From contig OU612073.1 in assembly GCA_914767715.1 (NCBI GenBank), positions 9,796,001 to 9,860,000 of the forward strand: a stretch of 64,000 bases of DNA. Direction: 5' to 3'. This DNA comes from Membranipora membranacea (lineage: Eukaryota; Bryozoa; Gymnolaemata; Cheilostomatida; Membraniporidae). The notes below the pieces were generated by a model that was not told where the DNA came from, did not search any database, and was given only the letters and a program-made list of their open reading frames with translations. Both the position numbers and the translations under genes were made by a program. Shown here in pieces: positions 161-64,000 of the stretch (position 1 is the stretch's first letter; each line of letters begins with the position of its first letter).

Positions 161-1184
161 GTTCTAAAAATAAGTAAACAGATAGAGCGCACCCCATTAA
201 AAGATTTGTTTGAGTGCAGTGAATAGTAAATTGGCAGTAGTATGTACACCTCACTTGCATCACACCAAAAAACTTAACGTTATTGACAACAACATGACAA
301 CAATGTGGGGGAGAGCTTATTTTGGCCCCTCAAACTCTTGACTCTCGACTGTTGAGAGAGGATGTTGAAGAATTATATCAATAAGTTTGCAGCACTGAAT
401 TCATTGACCAATGCCCATACAGGTGCTCCTGTTGGTTCAGTTTTGTAGGTTTGGGTCATATACAAGTACATATGTCAGGTAAGTCTCCTATTACTCCCTC
501 AAACATTTCAGGTCTATTTGGTGGATCCAGCATCTTGCCTTGTTTGCTACTCTCTGATACTTCCCACTGTTTATAAACAGCCCTCTTTGTCTGCTTTCCT
601 CTCCTTTGCTTCACAACCAAATCTAAATGATTAAAACTTGCGTATCAAGAAGCGCTCTCCGAATTAAGTAATTTTTGTTCGTCAACCTGACAGATTAATG
701 AAAATATTTTCATGATGTTGTGAGTTGTCCTTCAAATGTTAAATAGAGCACAACTCCCATTTAATTTTATTTGCAAATACTTCAGAAAAGTGGGCTACTG
801 TATGTGGTATTTATAATGAATCAGACATTTTTCTCAGAGACAAGGAACCTGCTATCAGCTATGACTTCACCACAAAAGCACTGAATATCATGTATACCTT
901 CTAATTCAGCTGTACAGCTAATGCAACTGAACTTGGAGACCCAAAATTTTCGGAACCCAATCATTTTGCTAATAATAATTTTAATATCGCTTTTAGGGTA
1001 TACCACTTTTTGCAACAGGCGTCTGACTTTTGCAATATCTCTCCACCACCAGATGGTTAAAGACTTGAATGGCAATGACACAATGTACACAACATTTTTA
1101 TAAATGAAATTCCTCATTCGGTAATACAATAATTTATTTTTCATAAATGTTTAACTTTATAATAATAACAATGATTTCTCTCTT

Positions 1185-1953
1185 TATGGTAATGTCAAAG
1201 ACCGATCCGAATATCAACATATCATATACCGTTGGAAAGCTGCCGAGCTACTGAAAATGAGTACCTGAACAAAAACTTGATTTGATGACGTTGTGTCATT
1301 TTAGAGAGAAAATGAGGCAGAAAACGCTGTTTTTGTCAATGCAGATGGAGGAGTCAAATTAATTTGCAAGAAATTTCAAAACAGGTGAAATGTATACTTA
1401 AAGATTGCGATCATCGTAAAATTTGATTTTCTTTGATATATGACTAGTCTAAATTGACTTTTTACATCACGCCATACAATGCATTTTTTTGTGAAGCCAT
1501 GAAAATATGTGAAATTTCAATCATTAATTCAGAACAGATCATAGGCTTGAAACAAAATTAATTATGATTTTCTCTTAGAGTACTCTTCAAATGTCATACG
1601 CATTGACTTTCAACAAATTAGCTTGCATATTGCAATGACAGTTAGACTGTCAAATACAGCTAATATTTTCGCCACCTTTGCATAACATCAAACACGCTGT
1701 GCAAATGACCATTATTGTGGCAAAACAAAGTTTTTGTGAAAGTTCTCACATGCGAAGCCGCTTTCATTAACCTTGGTGCACACAGGAAATGCCATAAAAA
1801 ATTTTCACTGCATCTTCAAGAGAATGACAAAAAAAAAAGAGTTTTTTTGTCATCGAATCAAGTTTTTGTTCGGGTATCCATTTTCAGTAGCTCGGAAGCT
1901 TTCCAACAGTATATGATATGTTGATATTCGGATCGGTCTTTGACATTACCTTA
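1185..1953. mobile_element. Non-autonomous DNA transposon-like element with ~90-bp terminal inverted repeats
   Basis: The stretch 1187-1280 (starting ATGGTAATGTCAAAGACC) is repeated in reverse complement at 1859-1953 (ending GGTCTTTGACATTACC) with a few mismatches. The ~580 bp between the arms has no transposase-like frame. The right end lies directly against the last coding exon of the Roco-caspase gene and is read into it. The flanks (TTTA and TTAA) could hold a degraded TTAA target site, but this is not certain. Confidence 0.8.
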
Positions 1954-3259
1954 AACAACATACCATGACACCATTTAATGCTGGTTGCATATTCTGCTGC
2001 TGGCAGCGTCAGCCTTGTAATTTCTTCAGGATGGTCGGCGGTATCTGTCATATTGAACCCTGGCTCCAAGTACAGCTTCCTCAGGTCAGTCAGCGTTGAG
2101 GTGATTCTGGGCATCTGTGCTGCGCATTGGCTCTTCTGCTGACTGTTAAGAGGCTTACTCTGCCTTTCAACAATCCTCTGAATGCTATGTCGGCTGACTG
2201 ACTCACGAATCTACAATTATTGGATCAAAGTTAGACCTCATTGAGATACAGTCACGTAGAGAAAAATGTGTCACGATCATAATGCTGAATGAGATAAATG
2301 TAAATACTCATCCAAGTCTCATTGTGACTTCAACAATTTTGATTTGATGAATCAAATTTCAGATGTGACAGAATACTGAAGACAGTGTACACCTTGTGGA
2401 ATTTCCTTTATTTTGGGCAAGACGGCGAGATGTGTCACAACTTGTTTTTGTGGAGAGGGTGCAATTGGCCGACCACAAAGCATTTTTGGCCACATCGGCC
2501 AATTGGCTGGAGGTTGGCTATGGTCATACATACTTCAGCTGTGATACATATAAATATGAAATAATCACAAAACGACAGAGAAGAACTTCACAATAGCAGC
2601 TATGCAGACATGGATTGTATGGCCTAATGCATTTTTGACTCAAATCACAAAGACAAGACTTGACTTACGATCTCAGCAAGTTGAGCTACATCAAGTCGGT
2701 GAGCAAATCTGTAGAAAGTCGTTACTAAGGCTCTGATAAATGGTGATCCTATACCCGAATTACGTGCAGATACAAATGCTACAATAATTACAATAATGGC
2801 GCAATTATAGCTGTGATAGGAAAATGAGATCCTGCTCTCAGACATAGCATGCAGAATTTACCAGCAAACTTGTCAAAGTTTGCTACAATTGCGGCATATA
2901 TTCATCAAAGCTGATGAAACGGATGGATGGTATTGGGCCTTTTCTCATGTTATTATATACAAGCAATTGACTGGGAATTCCAGGGTAAAGATGCATTGTA
3001 TATTTTTGTATCAGAATGTAATGCTTACATTCAAAACAGGATTGCATGATGAAGAAATCAGCCATATCAGATGACATTGTGCTTCCGTCAAGCCCGTCTA
3101 TATCATCAAACACATCCTCCATATTAGGAGTTGTCAACTCCTGTCCGTGATGTGAAGTCACGTGATCATTAATAATCTGAGTCACATGACCACCTTGAAC
3201 AGGATCAGCAGACAACAATGCAGGATTTGGGAGAGTTTCTGTTGGAGAATCCACATTTG
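1884..3259 (-). CDS. Caspase inter-subunit linker, small-subunit (p10-like) exons and C-terminus
   Basis: Exon 3029-3259 is a 60-residue linker rich in Asp (MEDVFDDIDGLDGS), then the p10 start SSDMADFFIMQSCFE. Exon 2669-2778 reads SARNSGIGSPFIRALVTTFY, with the Arg that binds substrate Asp in caspases. The last exon (1884-2210) reads QMPRITSTLTDLRKLYLEPG, the usual final caspase strand, then a 36-residue tail. The frame continues into a transposon terminal repeat and stops at 1884-1886 after 21 more residues (VMSKTDPNINISYTVGKL...). Alternatively, AAG|GTAATG at 1953/1952 is a splice donor to an unseen exon. The Asp-rich linker is where caspases are normally cut on activation. Confidence 0.85.
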
Positions 3260-6200
3260 CTAGAGAAATCAATGTTGACAAGTTTGTATAAAGTATGCAT
3301 GAAGACATGAGAAATCAGTATAAGGACACATACTTAGATGTAGGAAATCCCAATTCCACTGGCAAAGCAAACATGGTACTGGCTGGTAGTTTGGGAGGTC
3401 AGGTTTTGGCTAGGTGAAGGAAGTGAAAGGGTACTTTGAGGCGATTGTCTGTGTTGATGAAGTAGACGCCATTGAGCACCACTGAACATACGAGGACAAG
3501 CTAGACCTAACCAATCTATGGGCTCTGATTGACTGTGTTTGCACATTGGCTAGGTAGGTCCAAACGACTCAAATCTCACAAAACTAGTAACATTAATAAA
3601 CAGGATGGGTATTACTTTGTTGGACTGTGAGCCAGCATAAATTAGTACATTTTTAATTGAAATACCGCCTGATTACTTTAAAACAGTCAAGCAGGGTGGT
3701 ATGGCAATTAAAACTGCTAAATTCACTAGCTGATTGCTCTTTGATGAGACTAAATACATTTTGAGTGAATGATTTGGGAGCAAATTTGAAAGTTCAAATG
3801 AGCGATGATATTGAGCGTAGCCAGTGTTAGAATTTAGGGGGATGCAAGGGGATGGTGCACCCCTTCCTACTTTGTATAGGTGGATGGATCCCGCTATATA
3901 TCATAACTATAATGATGGCAATAAGCCGTGGATTTGCAGGCTTGAGCCCGTGATTTATTAATGGACCTGGACCCCAACTGGCTGGGCGGCCCCCTGGACC
4001 CCCAGCCTGGTTGGCATCCCCTATCTCATATCTTCCACTTCTATCACTGAGCGTAGCGTTAGTGATACATGTAGTTTGTATGACAAAACATGGTTCATTC
4101 TAATTGAAAGACCCGGCTCTTGTGCTGTGTGCCAGAAAAATTACGGTAGCATGCAACAATGCTTCTCTTCTTAGTTTTAGTGGAACCAACTTACTACTTT
4201 TTTCAAGCAATTTCATACTAGTGTGTTGAAGATGAAATTTGAAGATACATCGATATGATTAACTAGTACCATTACAATAACCATACCTGACGGTGAAAAT
4301 GGAAGGTCTCCTGCGCAGGCTTGAATTATCACCAGTTTAGGTTTTCCCTGCATAGCAGGAAAGTTTTTCGGCGATAATAGTTTATAGATATCAGTGAGCT
4401 TGACACGACGATGGTCTGATCCGATAATGCTCCCCTCTCCTCCATGGCTAGTCAACACTAGCACAAACATTCCCAAATCCTCATGAACAGATCTATGAGT
4501 ATGAGCACCTAGGTATTGGGTTTCCGTGTGAATGGTGGAGACAATCTCCTACAAGCGAGAACTTGAGATGGTCACATGACATATAAAACACTCATTGGCA
4601 TTAATGACTTGTACCGATTGTACAAATTCTAAGTATAGAATCTAATCGACGTTTTAGTTAAAAAAATGAGGACATTTGAGCCTTTTACAAGAAACTACCG
4701 TTGCCGTGTAATCCTTGTGATCCCCAACAGTGACAAATCCAAAGTCTTCGAACATCCGCTGTAAATTAGCATAATCATGTTCGGAACCAGGTCTTGTTGT
4801 GCCACATTTGTTCGAAATGATCAAGGCCCTTCCTCTGGTCTTGCTTAGTCTGTACTGTTTCTGGAATATAGCAATATAAACTGGGATCACTACAAAGGTT
4901 AAGCTGTAAATCCACTTTGAAGAATTTGGATGTAGAGAAAAGTAGACGATCAGGTGTCGCGCAAATTCTTTTGTGGTCATAAGGTCTACTAGCAGACTGA
5001 TAATCTCTATTAGCAAATTCATGTAAATTTAGTCAGAAATTAAAAAAAGTCAGATAGAGTTCAAATGCCAGCTGGCTCAATTCTACTGGACACAATCAAA
5101 GAAAAAATTTCAACTTGTTTTCAATTACCTAAGTAGCGAACATTTTAATGAGCGCGGGTCTGATGTACATAATATAGTATATATAATAACTTTATGGTCC
5201 TCACTCTTACCTCTCTATTCGGAATGGTACATTGTTCTGGTTTGAGGAATAATCTTGGCCTGCAAGCCTTCATCACTTCCACGATTTCTCCCACATATTG
5301 TCCCATCTCCTCTGACGTACATCCTTCAGGCTCTAAAATGTCAAAGGATTTGTTACTCATATTCCGATACTAGCCATAGCATAGCACTTTCAAGCCATTT
5401 TTTTGTTGTGAAAAGACGTTTGTTCATCGATTTGTATTCTATTCGCACATTATGATGACATGGATAATATAAATTGTATGCTGGTAATAGCTCTTAATTA
5501 GGTCTTATAAATGAAATTAGTGAATAGTGATACATATTAGTCATACAGTTTAAGTTTAAAGAGCCAGGCTGGCGCATGTAGTACACCAGCGGCTTGTTCT
5601 GAATCTTGAATCAGAGCATTTCGGGAGAAAATCCTTGGATTGAGGGTAGAAATAATTCTTTTATATAGCCTAGGACTCCTAGGTGATGGTTATCTGAAAA
5701 TCAGGTCAGCTACAATGTTACTATATGGTTGCTACAATCAGTAAAATTGAAATCATTCAGTTCAGGCAGTTGAGGAGCTAAACACAGCTCTCATCCTCAC
5801 AAAATGCTGTGGCTACTATTAGTCAATGATCAACTGGTTAGCTTTAATGAGTACCTCCCAATGCAGGCTGCCTTCTAGATCTTAGTCGCTCTAGATTAAC
5901 GACTAGAAATTTCTCAAGCCATTTTCTTTGCGCTGTCTTTATTGCTAGACCTGCAAATAGAGAATTATATGGTTCAGTGTAACATTCCATTTTGTGATTA
6001 TGGATAGGATAGTAATGTCTATTCCATATCAAATACTTGTAAATTTCATGAATGAATATCTTGCTTTGCTACAACCCATGACAAAAATCTACTCACATGG
6101 AAACTTCAACGGTCTCGGTACACTCTTTTGTGGATGGTTATTTCTACAACGAACAAGATCAATGCCCTCGAAATGCCTCAGTCGTTGCTTGAGAGTCCCA

Positions 6201-9200
6201 TTCTGTCCTGTGGGTAAAGTGTACCATTCTGGATTTGCTATGACATCAGGGGTCTCATCTCCCAAATAGATGCAATGAGCGCAGGAAAACTCTGCAATGG
6301 GATGAGCGGCTGCCCAGGTATTTGCGAGATTTAACAGGATGTACTCCAGCATTTCAAAAAGATATTTCCAACCACGGTCAAGATCATCGATAGGGCATTC
6401 TGTCTGTATGCTTATGCGGCTGGATTTGTAGTCATGGACTATGTGGCTGACATATTTTCCATGGCCAACAGTTGCGCCGTTTGAAGCTATACGTATTTGG
6501 GAGCTAGGGTCAATGAAAGATCGCAGGAAAAGGACAGTTGATATATTGTAAACGTATGTGGGTGGTGACAGACCAACAAAGTGAATGCTAGCTTGTAATG
6601 GAATGAGACAGGGACTGCAGCTGAAGAGCTTGATTGTTCTGTCTGAGAAGTAAGGCAGAATGAAATAATCTCTTCCTGATGTTCGTTTGATTGGACCGCA
6701 GACTACGGAGAACGACTTCAATACCAAAATGGCAATATCTACAGGTAGTGGTTGTTCTGCTAAAAGGTGGCACATAATCGCTTCGTCCAGGATTCCTGTC
6801 TTACGATAGGTTTCCACAAGAGATATGTATTCACCCCTCATAACCCTCTCGCAACCATACCTGAATGGATGAAAAGCTTGAATTCTCTGTTGCCACAAAT
6901 CTTTGATTCGGTGGTTGAATAGTGTAGTTATCATGTCAGTGATAACTGAAAGTCGATGGAAAATGAAAATCCCCAGTTCGTCACTGTTTTCAAACCACAA
7001 AATTCTACCGCTGTTGTGCATGAAACGAAGCACAACCACAATGTTTTTACCTGGGAACTCACTGCTTAACTCAGAGAAAAGAATATAGGAGACTTGTGAT
7101 TTTCCATCAATGTATTGGGCAACGAGCTCCCAAAACTGAGGTATGGTCTGCCTGACACCACGATGCTGAAGGTCTGATTTCAGTTTGGATATGCTGTCCG
7201 TATCCCCGAGGTCTTTGCTCAAGATGCATATATCGTCTACTTGGAATATGCTCTTGCTAATATTGTTGAGATGAGTTATCTGACGCCAACCATTGGTGTT
7301 GGTGTACTTGCCTTCCTCCTTAATGATATCACTGCGAAGCTCTTCCATATTCACAAGTAATTCAGATTTGTTGCAATCAAACTCGGAATCAGTGAAGCAA
7401 TCTTTATGGGTTAAGACAAGGATTGGTGGGCCCAAATCTGGGCATGCTAGATACAGTTGCGACAAGAAGCACATGCACAGTTGCCATGCAGCCTCCTTAG
7501 GACCGGAACGCTTAGCAATATCAGCATACTGCTGCATGCTGACTACGACTATTGGGATATAGTTCTCTCTTATGGCCAGCTGGTGGGTTATATGATAAAT
7601 CATGTCACCCCCAAAGTCAAACAGACTAATTTTCTCATCACCTACGGTTACTTCGTTTACTTTAAAAGCTTTCGTAGTTTCATCTTTGATGGCATCTTGC
7701 GCATTTCTGTAGGTAAGTTCACGTCTGTTTTTCTGCAGGCTCAAGATGAGGCTTGTTTTACCTGCCATTGTATTTCCAATCACTGCACCTGTGATGATGG
7801 GCAGTTTATTTACAACACCTTCTTCTAAATTGTCAAAATATGTCCTGATATCTTTGATTCCCTGTTTGCACACCTCATAAGGCGGTGTTTGTAGAGAGTA
7901 GCACCCATCGCAGTCTACTTGTTCTAAACTTGGTAGAACAAAAAGGTCTTTTTTTAATGAAGTGATGTGGGTAAGATGGTTCAATCTCAAATGTTGCAGA
8001 TTTCTCAGCGATGATAATCTTGTTGGAAGTTTCCTGAATTCATTTCCAGCGAGACTGAGCATAGATAACTGCTGCAAATTTGCGATCCTATAATAGAATT
8101 CAATTTGTTACAGTAAACAGTCTCATCCATGAATCAAGAGCCAGATATAATAATATACTCAATTTTACTACAGTGGTAAATAGGCCAGAAAATTAGCTTA
8201 CCCTTCATCAATCTCTACAAGACCACTTCCAGCTAAGAAGAGCTCACGAAGGTTTTTCAGCTGATAAACCACTGGTGGTAGTTTCCCTTCTACAAAGTAG
8301 TTCCCACCTATCACAAGCTTCTTGATACCTGTCAATTCAGCTAGCCTATAAGTCGGAAATAAAATGTATAATAACATCACAGAGTGTTGTTTCTCTAGTC
8401 TAGTAATTTCAATGGATATGACTAGTTTTATTCACCAGATTGGATACACAACGTCTGAGCAACCAATAGCTGTCACAGCCCCTCCAGCTCAACTCAACCT
8501 AAGCAATCGATTTGATCAAGTTGACGCATAAAATAGAAAAGTACCTTGGGTCTAAATCCTCTAGACCACATTTCCATAAACGTAGGTCCTTCAGATTCTT
8601 CAAACGGTGAACTACATCAGGAACGGTACCGCCACTAAATTCATTTTGTGAAAGATGTATGCGTGTCAGCAGGGAGAGCTCTGTCAATCTGGAAATCACA
8701 ATTATTATCTTGTCATGAAGAATCTATGATGCAAATGAACTACGAGCAGTCAGGATGGTGCATATGCTGTGCCAGACAGAGCTTTAGATCTAACAACAAC
8801 CGAAGAAATAATTTATTGGTATTAGTATTATTGGTATAAAGAAAAACAGTAAAGGCAAAACAAAACACTTTGGCCACACACTATTCCTCATATTTATGTA
8901 CCACTACCTACCTTCCATCCAGTACTTTGAGGCCACAATTTGAAATATTCAACACTTTTAGTGTCTTGAGATCGTATAGAGTCACTGGGAGTTCTCCTGT
9001 TGAAAAGATGTTATCACCAATGCTGAGGTTTTCCAGTTTTTCACACATAATCAACCTGTAACCAACAAGTAATATACGAAGCAGGTTGACTGATTATCAC
9101 AACAAAAATTTGTAGGCTAAACGGCAAGTGAACTTATTTGACGAAGGTAAGAAGGTTGTGTTCAATTGTTATGATTTCCGGCGGTCAGACAATGTGACTA

Positions 9201-10188
9201 GCACTCTGCAGCTAATAGAAGAACTGGAATGGAAAAATCTCAGTACCGGGAGAGAACGTCCGAGTAATTGACATTTCTGAGCCATACTTTTTGGTGATTT
9301 GGCAAATTACATCACATTTATCCACATCCTGGCAGTACTAGAAGGCATGACCTAATATCTCACTGCAATATTGACCTCCATAAAAAGAGCTTTTTTGTTG
9401 CCACCGCTTGAACTGTGGAATAACCTTTGAAGTGATTGTTTGATATTTTGTAGATCCTCCTCTGGCAAGGACTGATTACCAATAGATGAGCCTGAGACAT
9501 CGCTGGAACCTTCACAAGAACCAGAAGAAACAACGACCCTCCAAGTGAGTAATTTATGTTTAAAAATGGAAAAGATGAAGTTGTCCCTTATATTCAAGTG
9601 AACTTTCCAATGTAAATATCTGTCTTGTGTTTACCTCGCCATTTGTTGGTCAAGAGCTGGTATATCGTGCAGCTTCAGGACTCTAAGATGTGGGGCCACT
9701 CTATGCAGCCATTTGGGTATGTTTTTCTCTATCCACATGTGGGTTATATTATGGTGTTCGCCTATTTCCTTCCTTATATCGCTTAGGTTCATCTGCTTGG
9801 GGTAATAATATACTTTCATCTCAGGTATTTCATCCCTTGGTGGTTCTGGTTGACCTGTGTGTCTAAACCATACGCTGTACTTTTCTACGCAAAAAGAAAC
9901 AACCAAGGCTTGAGTTAAATTTTCCTAGTTTGCTGAGACTTAAATTACATGCAATTTTTTTGCTGTGCTAACTTGTTACCTCCGCTTGCTACGCCAAAGC
10001 TTTCGGCAGGGTAAGCATTCTTTTAGTGAAACCTCTCACACTTTTCAATACTAATTGTATGTTTACCACATGTTACACACACATTACACACACATACCTT
10101 CCTCATTCTCCTCACTATTGTTGGAATAGAGAGGACTGTGAAAGTATCCCCCATCTTCTTCCGCTGAGATCATAGCCTCTGAAGCCAT
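1884..10188 (-). CDS. LRR-Roc-COR-caspase fusion protein (whole gene, about 14 exons)
   Basis: Seen: a minus-strand gene whose exons join in phase. Exons, from the start: 10098-10188, 9635-9884, 9364-9538, (unresolved join), 8912-9055, 8545-8688, 8202-8345, 6097-8087, 5855-5950, 5211-5332, 4699-4860, 4287-4548, 3029-3259, 2669-2778, 1884-2210. The ATG at 10186-10188 opens MASEAMISAEEDGG. The product is about 1,416 residues: a novel N-terminus (1-172), leucine-rich repeats (about 172-400), a Roc GTPase (P-loop near 420), a COR-like region, then a caspase domain (about 1050-1360) and a short tail. Known: Roco proteins are GTPase scaffolds; caspases cleave after Asp in cell death and inflammation. 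Inferred: a sensor or switch protein that controls an attached protease. The join between 9364 and 9055 does not close in phase, so one small exon is missing or misplaced. Confidence 0.85.
4287..4860 (-). CDS. Caspase large-subunit (p20-like) exons
   Basis: Exon 4699-4860 reads KQYRLSKTRGRALIISN, then TRPGSEHDYANLQRMFEDFGF, the usual caspase opening; its TRPGS arginine matches a substrate-pocket Arg. Exon 4287-4548 carries the catalytic histidine in LVLTSHGGEGS and the catalytic cysteine in KPKLVIIQACAGD. Between them lies VKLTDIYKLLSPKNFPAMQGKPKL, which aligns with the family throughout. Two departures from the common form are SHGG (usually SHGE) and QACAG (usually QACRG or QACQG). Junctions close in phase (0, then 1). 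The conserved dyad supports an active cysteine protease, though substrate preference cannot be read from sequence. Confidence 0.92.
5211..5950 (-). CDS. Linker exons between COR region and caspase
   Basis: Exons 5855-5950 and 5211-5332. They encode a basic segment (KTAQRKWLEKFLVVNLERLRSRRQ) followed by an acidic helical stretch (EGCTSEEMGQYVGEIVEVMK) ending LKPEQCTIPNRE. Both junctions close in phase (G|AG CCT makes Glu). No recognised death-fold domain is visible here. The segment joins the COR end to the caspase core and may be a regulatory linker; that role is inference. Confidence 0.7.
6097..8087 (-). CDS. Large exon: last LRR, Roc GTPase and COR-like region
   Basis: A single 1,991-nt exon. 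It opens with two more leucine-rich repeats (LQQLSMLSLAGNEFRKLP), then a Roc-type Ras-like GTPase: P-loop GNTMAGKTSL, the DxxG motif in LFDFGGDMI, and the base-binding THKD. After the GTPase comes VRQTIPQFWELVAQYIDG, typical of the Roc-to-COR junction, then about 330 residues with the position and length of a COR domain (YILFSELSSEFPG, then IKRTSGRDYFILPYF). Known: in Roco proteins Roc binds and hydrolyses GTP and COR dimerises. All three nucleotide-binding motifs are intact, so GTP binding is expected. The donor CCAT|GTGAGT gives phase 1, matching the acceptor at 5950. Confidence 0.88.
8202..9055 (-). CDS. Three 144-nt leucine-rich-repeat exons of the Roco-caspase gene
   Basis: Exons 8912-9055, 8545-8688 and 8202-8345 are each exactly 144 nt (48 codons) and all join in the same phase (2 nt + 1 nt, usually rebuilding an Arg codon). 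Each encodes about two leucine-rich repeats with the same pattern: L..C..L..L.IG.N.F..G.LP..L..LK.L..L....CGL..LD. Known: such repeats form a curved ligand- or partner-binding surface, placed before the GTPase in Roco proteins. The equal lengths and phases indicate growth by exon duplication. The series continues into the start of the large exon at 8087. Confidence 0.85.
9247..9328 (-). CDS. Candidate small exon, junction unresolved
   Basis: An open segment after the acceptor CTGCCAG, reading DVDKCDVICQITKKYG and ending at CCCG|GTACTG. It starts in the phase left by the exon ending at 9364, but its own donor leaves phase 1 while the following leucine-rich exon needs phase 2. It may be a real exon with a different donor, or chance. 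Confidence 0.25.
9364..9884 (-). CDS. N-terminal exons 2 and 3 of the Roco-caspase gene
   Basis: Exon 2 (9635-9884) encodes KYSVWFRHTGQPEPP and ends in a segment reading WLHRVAPHLRVLKLHDIPAL, which looks like the first leucine-rich motif. Exon 3 (9364-9538) is serine-rich, then reads LPEEDLQNIKQSLQRLF and ends ALFMEVNIA before the donor GCA|GTGAGA. The exon 2 to 3 junction closes in phase (R-V-V-V). I do not recognise this ~140-residue region as a named domain. Exon 3 ends in phase 0 while the next leucine-rich exon needs phase 2, so something between 9056 and 9363 is unaccounted for. Confidence 0.6.
10098..10188 (-). CDS. First coding exon of the Roco-caspase gene
   Basis: Starts at ATG 10186-10188 and runs 91 nt to the donor AAG|GTATGT. 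It encodes an acidic, serine-rich leader (MASEAMISAEEDGG, then HSPLYSNNSEENEE) with no signal peptide or membrane segment, so the product should be cytosolic. An in-frame ATG five codons in could also serve. The phase (1) matches the acceptor at 9884, giving the junction E-K-Y-S-V. Confidence 0.7.
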
Positions 10189-11862: not shown

Positions 11863-14800
11863 TTACATGTTGGAGTCGCCCTGCCCACGTGGTGGTTTTT
11901 CCATATTGTTGTCCTCATTTCCATTCTCTTCGACTTGGAGTTGTAATCTCATGTGTTCCTCATCCTCCTTCCTCAAGTCATCCCTGGACAGGTGGTGTAC
12001 GATTCCAGCACCGAACGCATCACCCAGTACATTCACTGAGGTACGGAAGCGATCCCTGTAATAGTAAAAGATAATAGATTGATTTCAACAGATGAGAGTT
12101 AGTGGAGTACCTCTTGCCACCCGTCATAGGAATAAACTCAAAGAATAAATTGCTGATTTATTGCACAAAGAGTAGGTGGGGATTACTTCTGCTGAGTAAA
12201 TAGCTCAGCCAAGGAGTGACAGGGGACAGCTATTACTACTCGGCACAGCTCACATATATAACCATTCAAGATGTCGGGAGTTCATTAGACAAACCAACCT
12301 TGTCTAATATTAAATTTCATGATTGGATTACAAATTATCTGGGCATATTATTTGTCTTCAAGTGATTTGTCTACAAACGATAAGAAAAATCTATAAAATG
12401 TCTAATATCAAACTCTGTACAAAAACTGTTTCCCAAACTTACAGTAGCCAGTCGACTGTTACAATGATGCTAATATCCTCAGGTGGAAGGTCGGCAGCAA
12501 TCAACACCATCACCATGGTAACCAGTCCGGCACTCGGTATACTAGCAGCTCCAATACTGGCTAGGGTTGCTGTCAAGCTGTCAAAGGAGCAAATTGAATA
12601 GAGAATTGGAAAACAAATTTAATGAGAAATTTCTTACTTCGTTCAAGACAATTGTTGGTCATTGCAGTCCGAATCACAATAGGAAAGGTACAGGAGTATA
12701 CATGTTGACTGAAGAGTCAACAAAAACTAACCTAAAATTCCATAACTCATGTCACCATTTATCATTGGTCAATAATTACAACAGACCCTGTAAATGCTGT
12801 TGGCTGACATCAAATATAACTAGTAAACAAATCATACCAGGTCAACAAGTTGTTTTTATTTCACTTTAAATATAAACTTTTAGAAAACCTTTATAAATAA
12901 ATAAATCTATATAAATATATATATATAAAGTAATATATGTAAATACCTTATGGTGCAGATTTGACCGAATGCAAGTTCTCTGCCATTGAGTTGTGCTATG
13001 AAGATTGCAGCGACAGCCTCATACAGGGCAGTACCATCCATGTTGACAGTGGCTCCGACTGGCAGCACAAACCTAGTCACTCTCTTATCAATGTGATTAT
13101 TCTCTTCCAAACATCTGAAGGTGACCGGCAGTGTGGCAGAACTGTGTGATTAAATAAATAGAAATTAAAAATCAGATGTCTTATCACAAGCCATATCCCG
13201 AAGCATGAGTGGCGAAATTTTGGTGCCTTAGTATCGAGGCCGCAATATCTGCGCCAGGTTGCTCTCTGTTCGCAGGCAGGTCAGAGTACACCTGGGGGCC
13301 AACCAAACCCCAGGAGTCGATGGACTGCAGTGGGATTCCAACGCACGGCCTTCAACATTTGCATGTTAAAGGACCGCTGCTCTAACCGACTGAGCCACCA
13401 CCTACTCCTACTGATATCGGAACAGACCAATATTGGAACTGGAAGCAGCAAAGCATTATACAGAGCAGTGGGCTCGATGATAGACCAAACAAAAATATGA
13501 TCACAGGGACAGGGACAAAACTAACAATATAGGATGTCAATAAACCTAAATTTGGGATCTAACTCCTTGATTGAAAGCAATCATGATTATCATGCAAAAT
13601 GATTCAAAAGCCAAGGAAAGCTTTTGGGATGAGAATGTAGTCTTCAAGAACGCATGTTGTGGCTACTACCTTTATAGCAAACGGATTTGTCTCATTTACC
13701 TGGATGCTGTTCCAAGAGCAGTTAGCCATGCCTGCAGCACACCTTTCATAAACTTGAAAGGATTCTTCCTTGTCACAGCAAAGTACAGCAGAGGTAGTAT
13801 AATAGCCGCATGGATGATAAGACCAGTCATAACTGTGACCATGTACATGCCTAATGTAGCAGCTACCGTTTCAAGTTTGCCTATACTAATGATGTTGCCC
13901 ATGATCAAGAACATAATACCGATCGGAGAGTACCTGTAGAAAAGTAGATAGAGCTTAGTCTGGAGACTAAGTCTCGTTTGATATGGTTCAAAGCCACACC
14001 CTTGCCGCTGCTCATTTATATGTCCTGGTGCCTTTTGGGAGGAAAGCGGGACAGCTGTCACTCTGGTCCCCGGACTATCTAGCTTGCTTTTATGCTATTT
14101 TTTTTCCATTACAAGGATTCTTTTAGCAGAATAATAGAGAAAAAACGTAGTCAAAGTTTTAGCCAACTACTCACCACATAATAATGTTGACTAGTGCCAT
14201 TACAATCTCACTGAGCTCAGTGAAAAACTGAATGAGAAGTTGTGCCCTCTCACCATATCTCGATAAAACGATTCCAAATCCAATGCAGAAAGTGATGATT
14301 CCTAAAGATTGAAAATGGTAATATGAGTTTTGAAAAACCTCAGATGAAATGATAAAAGAATTCTAAAATTTTAACAGGGCGGAAATGAACTGTAGTTTTG
14401 TCGGCCTGTTTGCATGCCATGTAATGTAGAAGGCCGACAAATGAGTGTCACACATAATTCCCTGGACATCCAGGACTTAGTTTTATCAGAGTTTTATAGT
14501 TGGACGCTATAACAATCGTGGCAACAAAACACTAATGTTCTAGAATAGAAAACACTTACCAAGAACATTGATTCCATCAACTTTAGTTAAAACTCTGTCA
14601 ACATTTTCAAACTCGGGGCCCATGGTAGTGGTCATGATCATTGTCGTCATGTTAGAAACCTCTGCAAGAATACAAAAGAGGATCAACATAACAAAACAAA
14701 GAAGGGACAACTCTTCACAACCGTTGCAAAAATTACAATTTATATCCTTGCAGATTATCACTAGCTGAATGTCCACGATAGAAAGAGATTTACACCAGGC

Positions 14801-26635: not shown

Positions 26636-64000
<37,365 letters not shown>

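Follow-up and report, generated by a model that had tools for sequence, protein, structure and literature searches.

Can an animal genome encode a leucine-rich repeat (LRR) sensor, a Roc-COR GTPase and a caspase as a single polypeptide? Animal caspases are thought to be coupled to sensors through adaptor domains, and the question is raised by a locus in a 64,000-nucleotide stretch of the genome of the bryozoan Membranipora membranacea (assembly GCA_914767715.1, contig OU612073.1, positions 9,796,001 to 9,860,000). This stretch is hereafter called the window, and positions are given in its coordinates. A first interpretation made from the letters of this DNA (the sequence-only reading) had proposed that exons for all three parts lie on one strand and join in phase. 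We find that the same genome holds at least 162 Roc-COR loci, many of them in arrays, and that this gene belongs to them, a larger finding than the single gene. What the family encodes, and how its parts might work together, is addressed below.

Read on the minus strand, 10188 to 1884 can be modelled as 14 exons that all join in phase and encode a protein of 1383 residues (Table 1). An N-terminal region leads into the LRRs, which are followed by a Roc GTPase and COR; after a linker comes an animal-type caspase, p20 before p10, and the protein closes with a tail. All of the pieces named in the sequence-only reading, namely the LRRs, GNTMAGKTSL, SHGG, QACAG and p10, are present on this strand with their exons in phase, and its coordinates were correct. 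Pfam matched all three domain types in the joined protein (Peptidase_C14, 5.1e-33; LRR_4, 1.4e-14; Roc, 3e-6). None of these matches was to a CARD, DED, death or pyrin domain, no NACHT domain was matched by Pfam, and no protein kinase was matched at E values up to 1. The least certain parts of the model are exon 3 and the start codon, and the coding score of the exons was too weak to be decisive. Residues 31-105 match three relatives in the same genome (L130, L131 and L137, E from 1.7e-6 to 4.9e-10), and the tail encoded by exon 14 is also matched in relatives (L126, L127, L145 and L147). LRR exons of 144 nucleotides (nt) are rare in the relatives scanned, with three in L137. In L144, unlike the window gene, the LRRs share a single frame with Roc-COR rather than occupying 144-nt LRR exons, and the caspase has diverged. 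Positions 1-2619 of this locus (contig C3) hold many near-identical LRRs (type SIGQLTNLTSL), and a single long open frame spans these and Roc-COR.

The C-terminal part can be classified as a caspase (C14A), with p20 and p10, the catalytic His and Cys, and predicted S1-pocket residues. SHGG occupies residues 1108-1111 and QACAG residues 1150-1154, while p10 starts at about residue 1226 by alignment with CED-3. The stretch from exon 11 is matched on its own by the Pfam caspase model (8e-12). In PDB the joined caspase matches CED-3 best (E 1e-15), and p10 aligns with it also. SHGG, QACAG, the arginine of TRPGSEHD and the arginine of SARN all align with CED-3; the two arginines are what we take to be S1-pocket residues. 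The His and Cys of exon 11 are kept in all 16 relatives with a matched exon 11 (L143 ends before this exon). Around the His, 13 of these read SHG, two THG (L128 and L142) and one GHG (L131); around the Cys, 14 read QACAG or QACSG and two QSCSG (L135 and L136).

On the upstream side, exon 7 alone is matched by Pfam Roc (1.2e-6, 29.2 bits against a cut-off of 27) and carries the Roc motifs, with the P-loop GNTMAGKTSL at residues 388-397, DFGG at 441-444, and THKD. The gene has a Roc GTPase domain with a P-loop and a DxGG motif. A COR domain follows Roc directly. For comparison we used 84 prokaryotic Roc-COR proteins, drawn from 115 loci that were fetched among the matches listed for a Roc motif. 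Aligned with these by hhalign, the window gene scored 42.7, against 26.9 for the best of 120 shuffles; the match covers COR-A only and falls in the expected place. The same comparison with an 18-member alignment of the family gave a probability of 99.5 over 392 columns, from COR-A through COR-B. Pfam COR-A was found in two relatives, L144 (3.4e-5) and L125 (1.5e-4), in both cases under the curated cut-off. For the window gene by itself, several searches did not show COR. Taken alone, its COR region had no match in Pfam and none by phmmer against PDB, and a COR-only hidden Markov model built from the prokaryotic proteins ranked it below 5 of 2000 shuffles. A single-sequence structure model of exon 7 was of no use, with a mean predicted local distance difference test score of 32.6. 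A tblastn search of exon 7 against phage records gave no match.

The extent of the family was followed across the genome from which the window comes, 339 Mb in 18 contigs. Four Roc-COR searches were made, with the best candidates scored in each: exon 7 (66 of 257), PF08477 (150 of 372, matches being taken only when in long frames), the L125 exon (67 of 405) and the L135 exon (65 of 293). Their union is the at least 162 merged loci, the window gene included, three of which have open frames under 600 residues (567, 490 and 396). A PF00656 search for caspases gave at least 145 matches, with 140 of 515 candidates scored. With a further set of caspase matches joined to these, 124 of the 162 listed Roc-COR loci are followed by a same-strand caspase exon inside 6 kb, 502-2925 nt away (median 1310 nt), with none upstream and none on the opposite strand. 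With 134 caspase loci, a Roc-COR locus would have such a neighbour by chance with a probability of about 0.0012, tandem copies being non-independent. Seen from the other side, 125 of 184 merged caspase loci among the matches listed have a Roc-COR exon upstream. Of the 38 Roc-COR loci without a listed caspase, 30 are on contig C3 at 14-28 Mb. Six loci were fetched from the Roc side when no caspase was listed for them (L144 and L148 on C3, L145 on C11, L146 on C7, L147 and L149 on C8), and all six have a caspase by motif, that of L144 being matched by Pfam as well (7e-11). L145, L146 and L147 have a listed caspase in the further set of matches; L144, L148 and L149 are among the 38, the other 35 being unseen. 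No effector other than a caspase was met at the 124 listed and six inspected loci, with 35 loci unseen.

Whether LRR-Roc-COR and caspase are one gene depends on the junction between COR and the caspase, where the window alone leaves the choice ambiguous. The alternative is two adjacent genes that duplicate together, an LRR-Roc-COR gene ending ALGGTH and a short-prodomain caspase gene starting MSNK. Several observations count for two genes. If exon 8 is left unspliced it runs to an in-frame stop just within intron 8 (TAA, 5846-5844), and the sequence ahead of exon 9 holds an in-frame stop and, after it, an ATG at 5358. The acceptor of intron 8 is the lowest of 13 by a matrix made from the other introns of the gene. 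In addition, 59 of the 184 listed caspase loci are without a listed Roc-COR upstream, so free caspases exist too. By a generic splice matrix, the same acceptor is within the range of the other acceptors of the gene. Just one donor in exon 8 has a positive score; it leaves in phase 1, which is also the phase taken by the acceptor at 5332. A rival phase-1 AG, with an exon start at 5236, scores 1.72 against 1.49 for 5332, but its use would delete most of exon 9.

The relatives in the same genome speak more clearly. We fetched 20 caspase loci with about 7-10 kb of upstream sequence; they were hand-picked, mostly from p20 matches in arrays, and are therefore no random sample. In 17 of the 20, a single exon upstream of the caspase and in its orientation holds Roc and COR, with LRRs before them in most. 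All 17 have both halves of the linker between COR and p20, and in five (L131, L135, L136, L142 and L143) the two halves form one open frame in a single exon. Among the 12 remaining relatives, 11 are without an in-frame ATG upstream of the exon-9 core, though a start at an internal Met could still serve, several holding a Met inside the core. The best phase-matched donor-acceptor pair is in phase 1 in 11 of the 12, some pairs being weak and that of L130 below zero; the twelfth, L138, has no scoring splice pair and does have an ATG. There are limits on the other side of the balance as well: three of the 20 loci (L133, L134 and L139) gave no Roc match in the fetched sequence, the 17 relatives had been selected for possessing a caspase, and the five one-exon cases are non-independent, L135, L136 and L143 being recent copies (C8). 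The order, finally, is uniform, with the caspase on the opposite strand in 0 and caspase-first in 0 of 162 Roc-COR loci. Because of the linker and junction structure of the relatives, the family is much better read as encoding one polypeptide, and so, by homology and at the genomic level, is the window gene, as had been proposed; for the same reason the two-gene arrangement has been lowered to an improbable one. Of the three loci without a Roc match, L133 shows an LRR match some 0.6 kb ahead of its caspase. Two ideas about the linker were set aside. An uncleavable tether formed by the Asp-free residues 928-1048 across the junction was dropped, as L132 has an Asp in exon 9; a run as long arose in 318 of 5000 shuffles, and across the junction in 33 of 5000. 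For a death-fold domain in the linker there was no Pfam match.

If the two parts were joined once and inherited together, their divergence should run in parallel. Identities of Roc-COR and of the caspase do covary across 17 genes (r 0.598, reached in 0 of 5000 permutations), and also when recent copies are left out (14 genes; r 0.407, 18 of 5000 permutations). Selection was estimated by a simple count on few codons, pooling four separate recent pairs and taking as LRR the 60 codons that precede Roc inside the exon. The LRR had 47 amino-acid and 6 silent changes, a ratio of nonsynonymous to synonymous rates (dN/dS) of 2.41, compared with 27 and 34 changes for Roc (0.22) and 87 and 59 for COR (0.41). 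The difference between LRR and Roc has p 5e-7. Roc and COR are under purifying selection, and the LRRs change fast within the family. Two results temper the latter: the excess of dN over dS inside the LRR alone has p 0.02, resting on 60 codons per pair, and in an unpooled pair (L124/L125) the LRR dN of 0.21 is below its dS of 0.57. Two further unpooled pairs, both involving L143, had no silent LRR changes, with LRR dN against Roc dN of 0.058 and 0.064 in one and 0.066 and 0.066 in the other.

We think it quite likely that the locus encodes one intracellular LRR/Roc-COR/caspase receptor with a sensor, a GTP switch and a protease output, serving in defence or in the recognition of non-self. Initiator caspases are activated by proximity. 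From these parts we infer sensing, GTP control, dimerisation, cleavage and a role as follows. The N-terminal LRRs would bind a ligand or partner, and Roc-COR, acting as a GTP-controlled dimerisation switch, would change state. The caspases of two or more chains would then be brought together or freed, and the C-terminal caspase would fire by proximity, through dimerisation, as the output; the active enzyme would probably go on to cut the Asp-rich linker between p20 and p10. The proposal in the sequence-only reading that LRR binding and the GTP state switch the caspase, bypassing adaptors, is consistent with this anatomy and with the retained catalytic residues. In a bacterial Roco protein, GTP is described as driving monomerisation (PMC11052575). 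A receptor for variable partners is suggested, as copy number, arrays, fast LRRs and single-phase LRR exons would fit one, and a role in defence against microbes or in recognition of non-self is likely. Going further, on balance we lean towards a class of animal innate receptors that has not been described before, an inflammasome in one piece with more than 160 loci, many of them arrayed, whose LRRs are diversifying and which would replace, or work beside, NLRs and adaptors.

Within the one-gene reading, with which its odds overlap, the role could be allorecognition between individuals rather than defence against microbes. The anatomy would be the same, and a large family whose recognition repeats change fast would suit either role. 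Nothing in the present evidence separates the two, and we treat allorecognition as a tentative, rather unlikely sub-case. The one gene might instead carry a caspase that is mainly structural or regulatory, or exist in many dead copies, and so be no death receptor. The QSCSG, THG and GHG variants among the 16 exon 11 sequences would suit this, as would the caspase of L149, which reads DCCSG; several Roc-COR exons carry a stop, and part of the family may therefore be broken. Against it stand the retention of His and Cys in all 16 relatives and the purifying selection on Roc (dN/dS 0.22) and COR (0.41), and we give this explanation little credence.

Table 1. Exons of the LRR/Roc-COR/caspase gene and other features of the window.
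Feature	Position	Strand	Description
Exon 1	10098..10188	-	start codon and N-terminus; open frame with GT donor; predicted start
Exon 2	9635..9884	-	N-terminal region ahead of the LRRs
Exon 3	9425..9502	-	short; picked by phase and acceptor; low coding score; least certain exon
Exon 4	8912..9055	-	two LRRs, 144 nt, phase 2
Exon 5	8545..8688	-	two LRRs, 144 nt, phase 2
Exon 6	8202..8345	-	two LRRs, 144 nt, phase 2
Exon 7	6097..8087	-	1991 nt; last LRRs, Roc (P-loop, DFGG, THKD), COR-A and COR-B
Exon 8	5855..5950	-	COR-caspase linker, first half
Intron 8	5333..5854	-	522 nt, phase 1; doubtful junction
Exon 9	5211..5332	-	COR-caspase linker, second half
Exon 10	4699..4860	-	caspase p20, first part; arginine of TRPGSEHD
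Exon 11	4287..4548	-	caspase p20 with SHGG and QACAG
Exon 12	3029..3259	-	Asp-rich p20-p10 linker (DDIDGLDG); putative cleavage site
Exon 13	2669..2778	-	caspase p10 (SARNSGIGSPFI); aligns with CED-3 p10
Exon 14	1884..2210	-	C-terminal tail; stop at 1884
Inverted copy of gene 3' end	1183-1289	+	107 nt, 93% identical to 1849-1955
Symporter exons	~12907-14094	-	sodium:dicarboxylate symporter (Pfam SDF)
Dynein exons	~29755-58483	-	axonemal dynein heavy chain (Pfam DHC_N2, MT (below cut-off), AAA_9, Dynein_heavy)
tRNA gene	33795-33866	+	amid the dynein exons
Tandem repeat	53821-53986		14-nt unit, ~12 copies, 99% alike

The inverted copy encodes the last 24 residues of the gene and its stop at 96% identity, about 0.6 kb off on the opposite strand. 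Elsewhere in the window, the symporter exons adjoin the receptor gene, one of the dynein exons has Dynein axonemal heavy chain 5 as its best PDB match, and the tRNA gene is the sole Rfam match in the window at the gathering threshold.

The locus looks like a member of a large family of one-piece immune or self-recognition receptors. A sensor, a GTP switch and a caspase in a single chain would offer a short, testable route from recognition to protease, and a natural system for asking how the GTP state of Roc-COR acts on a fused output, which is an open question for LRRK2. As a putative animal counterpart of bacterial Roco-effector proteins, the family is also relevant to the origin that bacterial and animal immunity share.

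Among animal Roco proteins, LRRK1, LRRK2, MFHAS1 and DAPK1 share Roc-COR with the window gene, and all except DAPK1 have LRRs before it (PMC6337361, PMC4104024). In the window gene, by contrast, COR is followed by a caspase, and neither a kinase nor a death domain was found. Roco proteins are divided into three groups in a review whose main text lacks the words "caspase", "protease" and "peptidase" (PMC6337361). Placozoans have a Roco set of at least 17 genes, whose further domains include CARD, death and TIR; here too an animal Roco family has expanded and been combined with death or immune domains (PMC4104024). The placozoan CARD and death domains are adaptors, however, and section 5 of that paper and the legend name no caspase. 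In brown-algal ROCO genes the LRR exons are also of phase 2, with a length of 72 nt where the window gene has 144 nt, also a multiple of 72, in three exons; unlike the window gene, these are described with LRR-ROC-COR as the only domain structure and no caspase (PMC11378527). NLRs and inflammasome caspases likewise combine an LRR sensor, an NTPase switch and a caspase output, with large species-specific expansions (PMC12909245, PMC11508797). In a paper on sponge NLRs the legend of the NLR figure gives CASc and COR as domain abbreviations, and the immune-domain table has neither Roc nor a caspase (PMC12909245). NLRs carry NACHT, whereas the window gene carries Roc-COR instead. With NLRs, the caspase is as a rule a protein of its own that CARD, PYD or death domains recruit.

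The closest known arrangement is bacterial. The sequence-only reading knew this order from no described family, which holds only in part: in bacteria, LRR-AP-GTPase(Roc)-COR proteins are reported with C-terminal domains of at least 24 kinds, a caspase among them, as predicted conflict systems (PMC8195603). The domain order is therefore not wholly new. For animals, no LRR-Roc-COR-caspase family was found among the papers listed by literature searches, most subscription journals being outside their coverage. By motif scan, none of the 115 fetched prokaryotic Roc loci shows a caspase, many of them being incomplete and the motif picking one subgroup. Burroughs and Aravind (2021) report that one genome can hold several copies of the bacterial genes, with 11 in one bacterium (PMC8195603). 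The window gene shares with these bacterial proteins the order of LRR, Roc, COR and C-terminal effector, and differs in being spliced, with 14 exons in a 339-Mb genome that is not prokaryotic, in carrying an animal-type caspase whose best PDB match is CED-3, and in belonging to a family of at least 162 loci.

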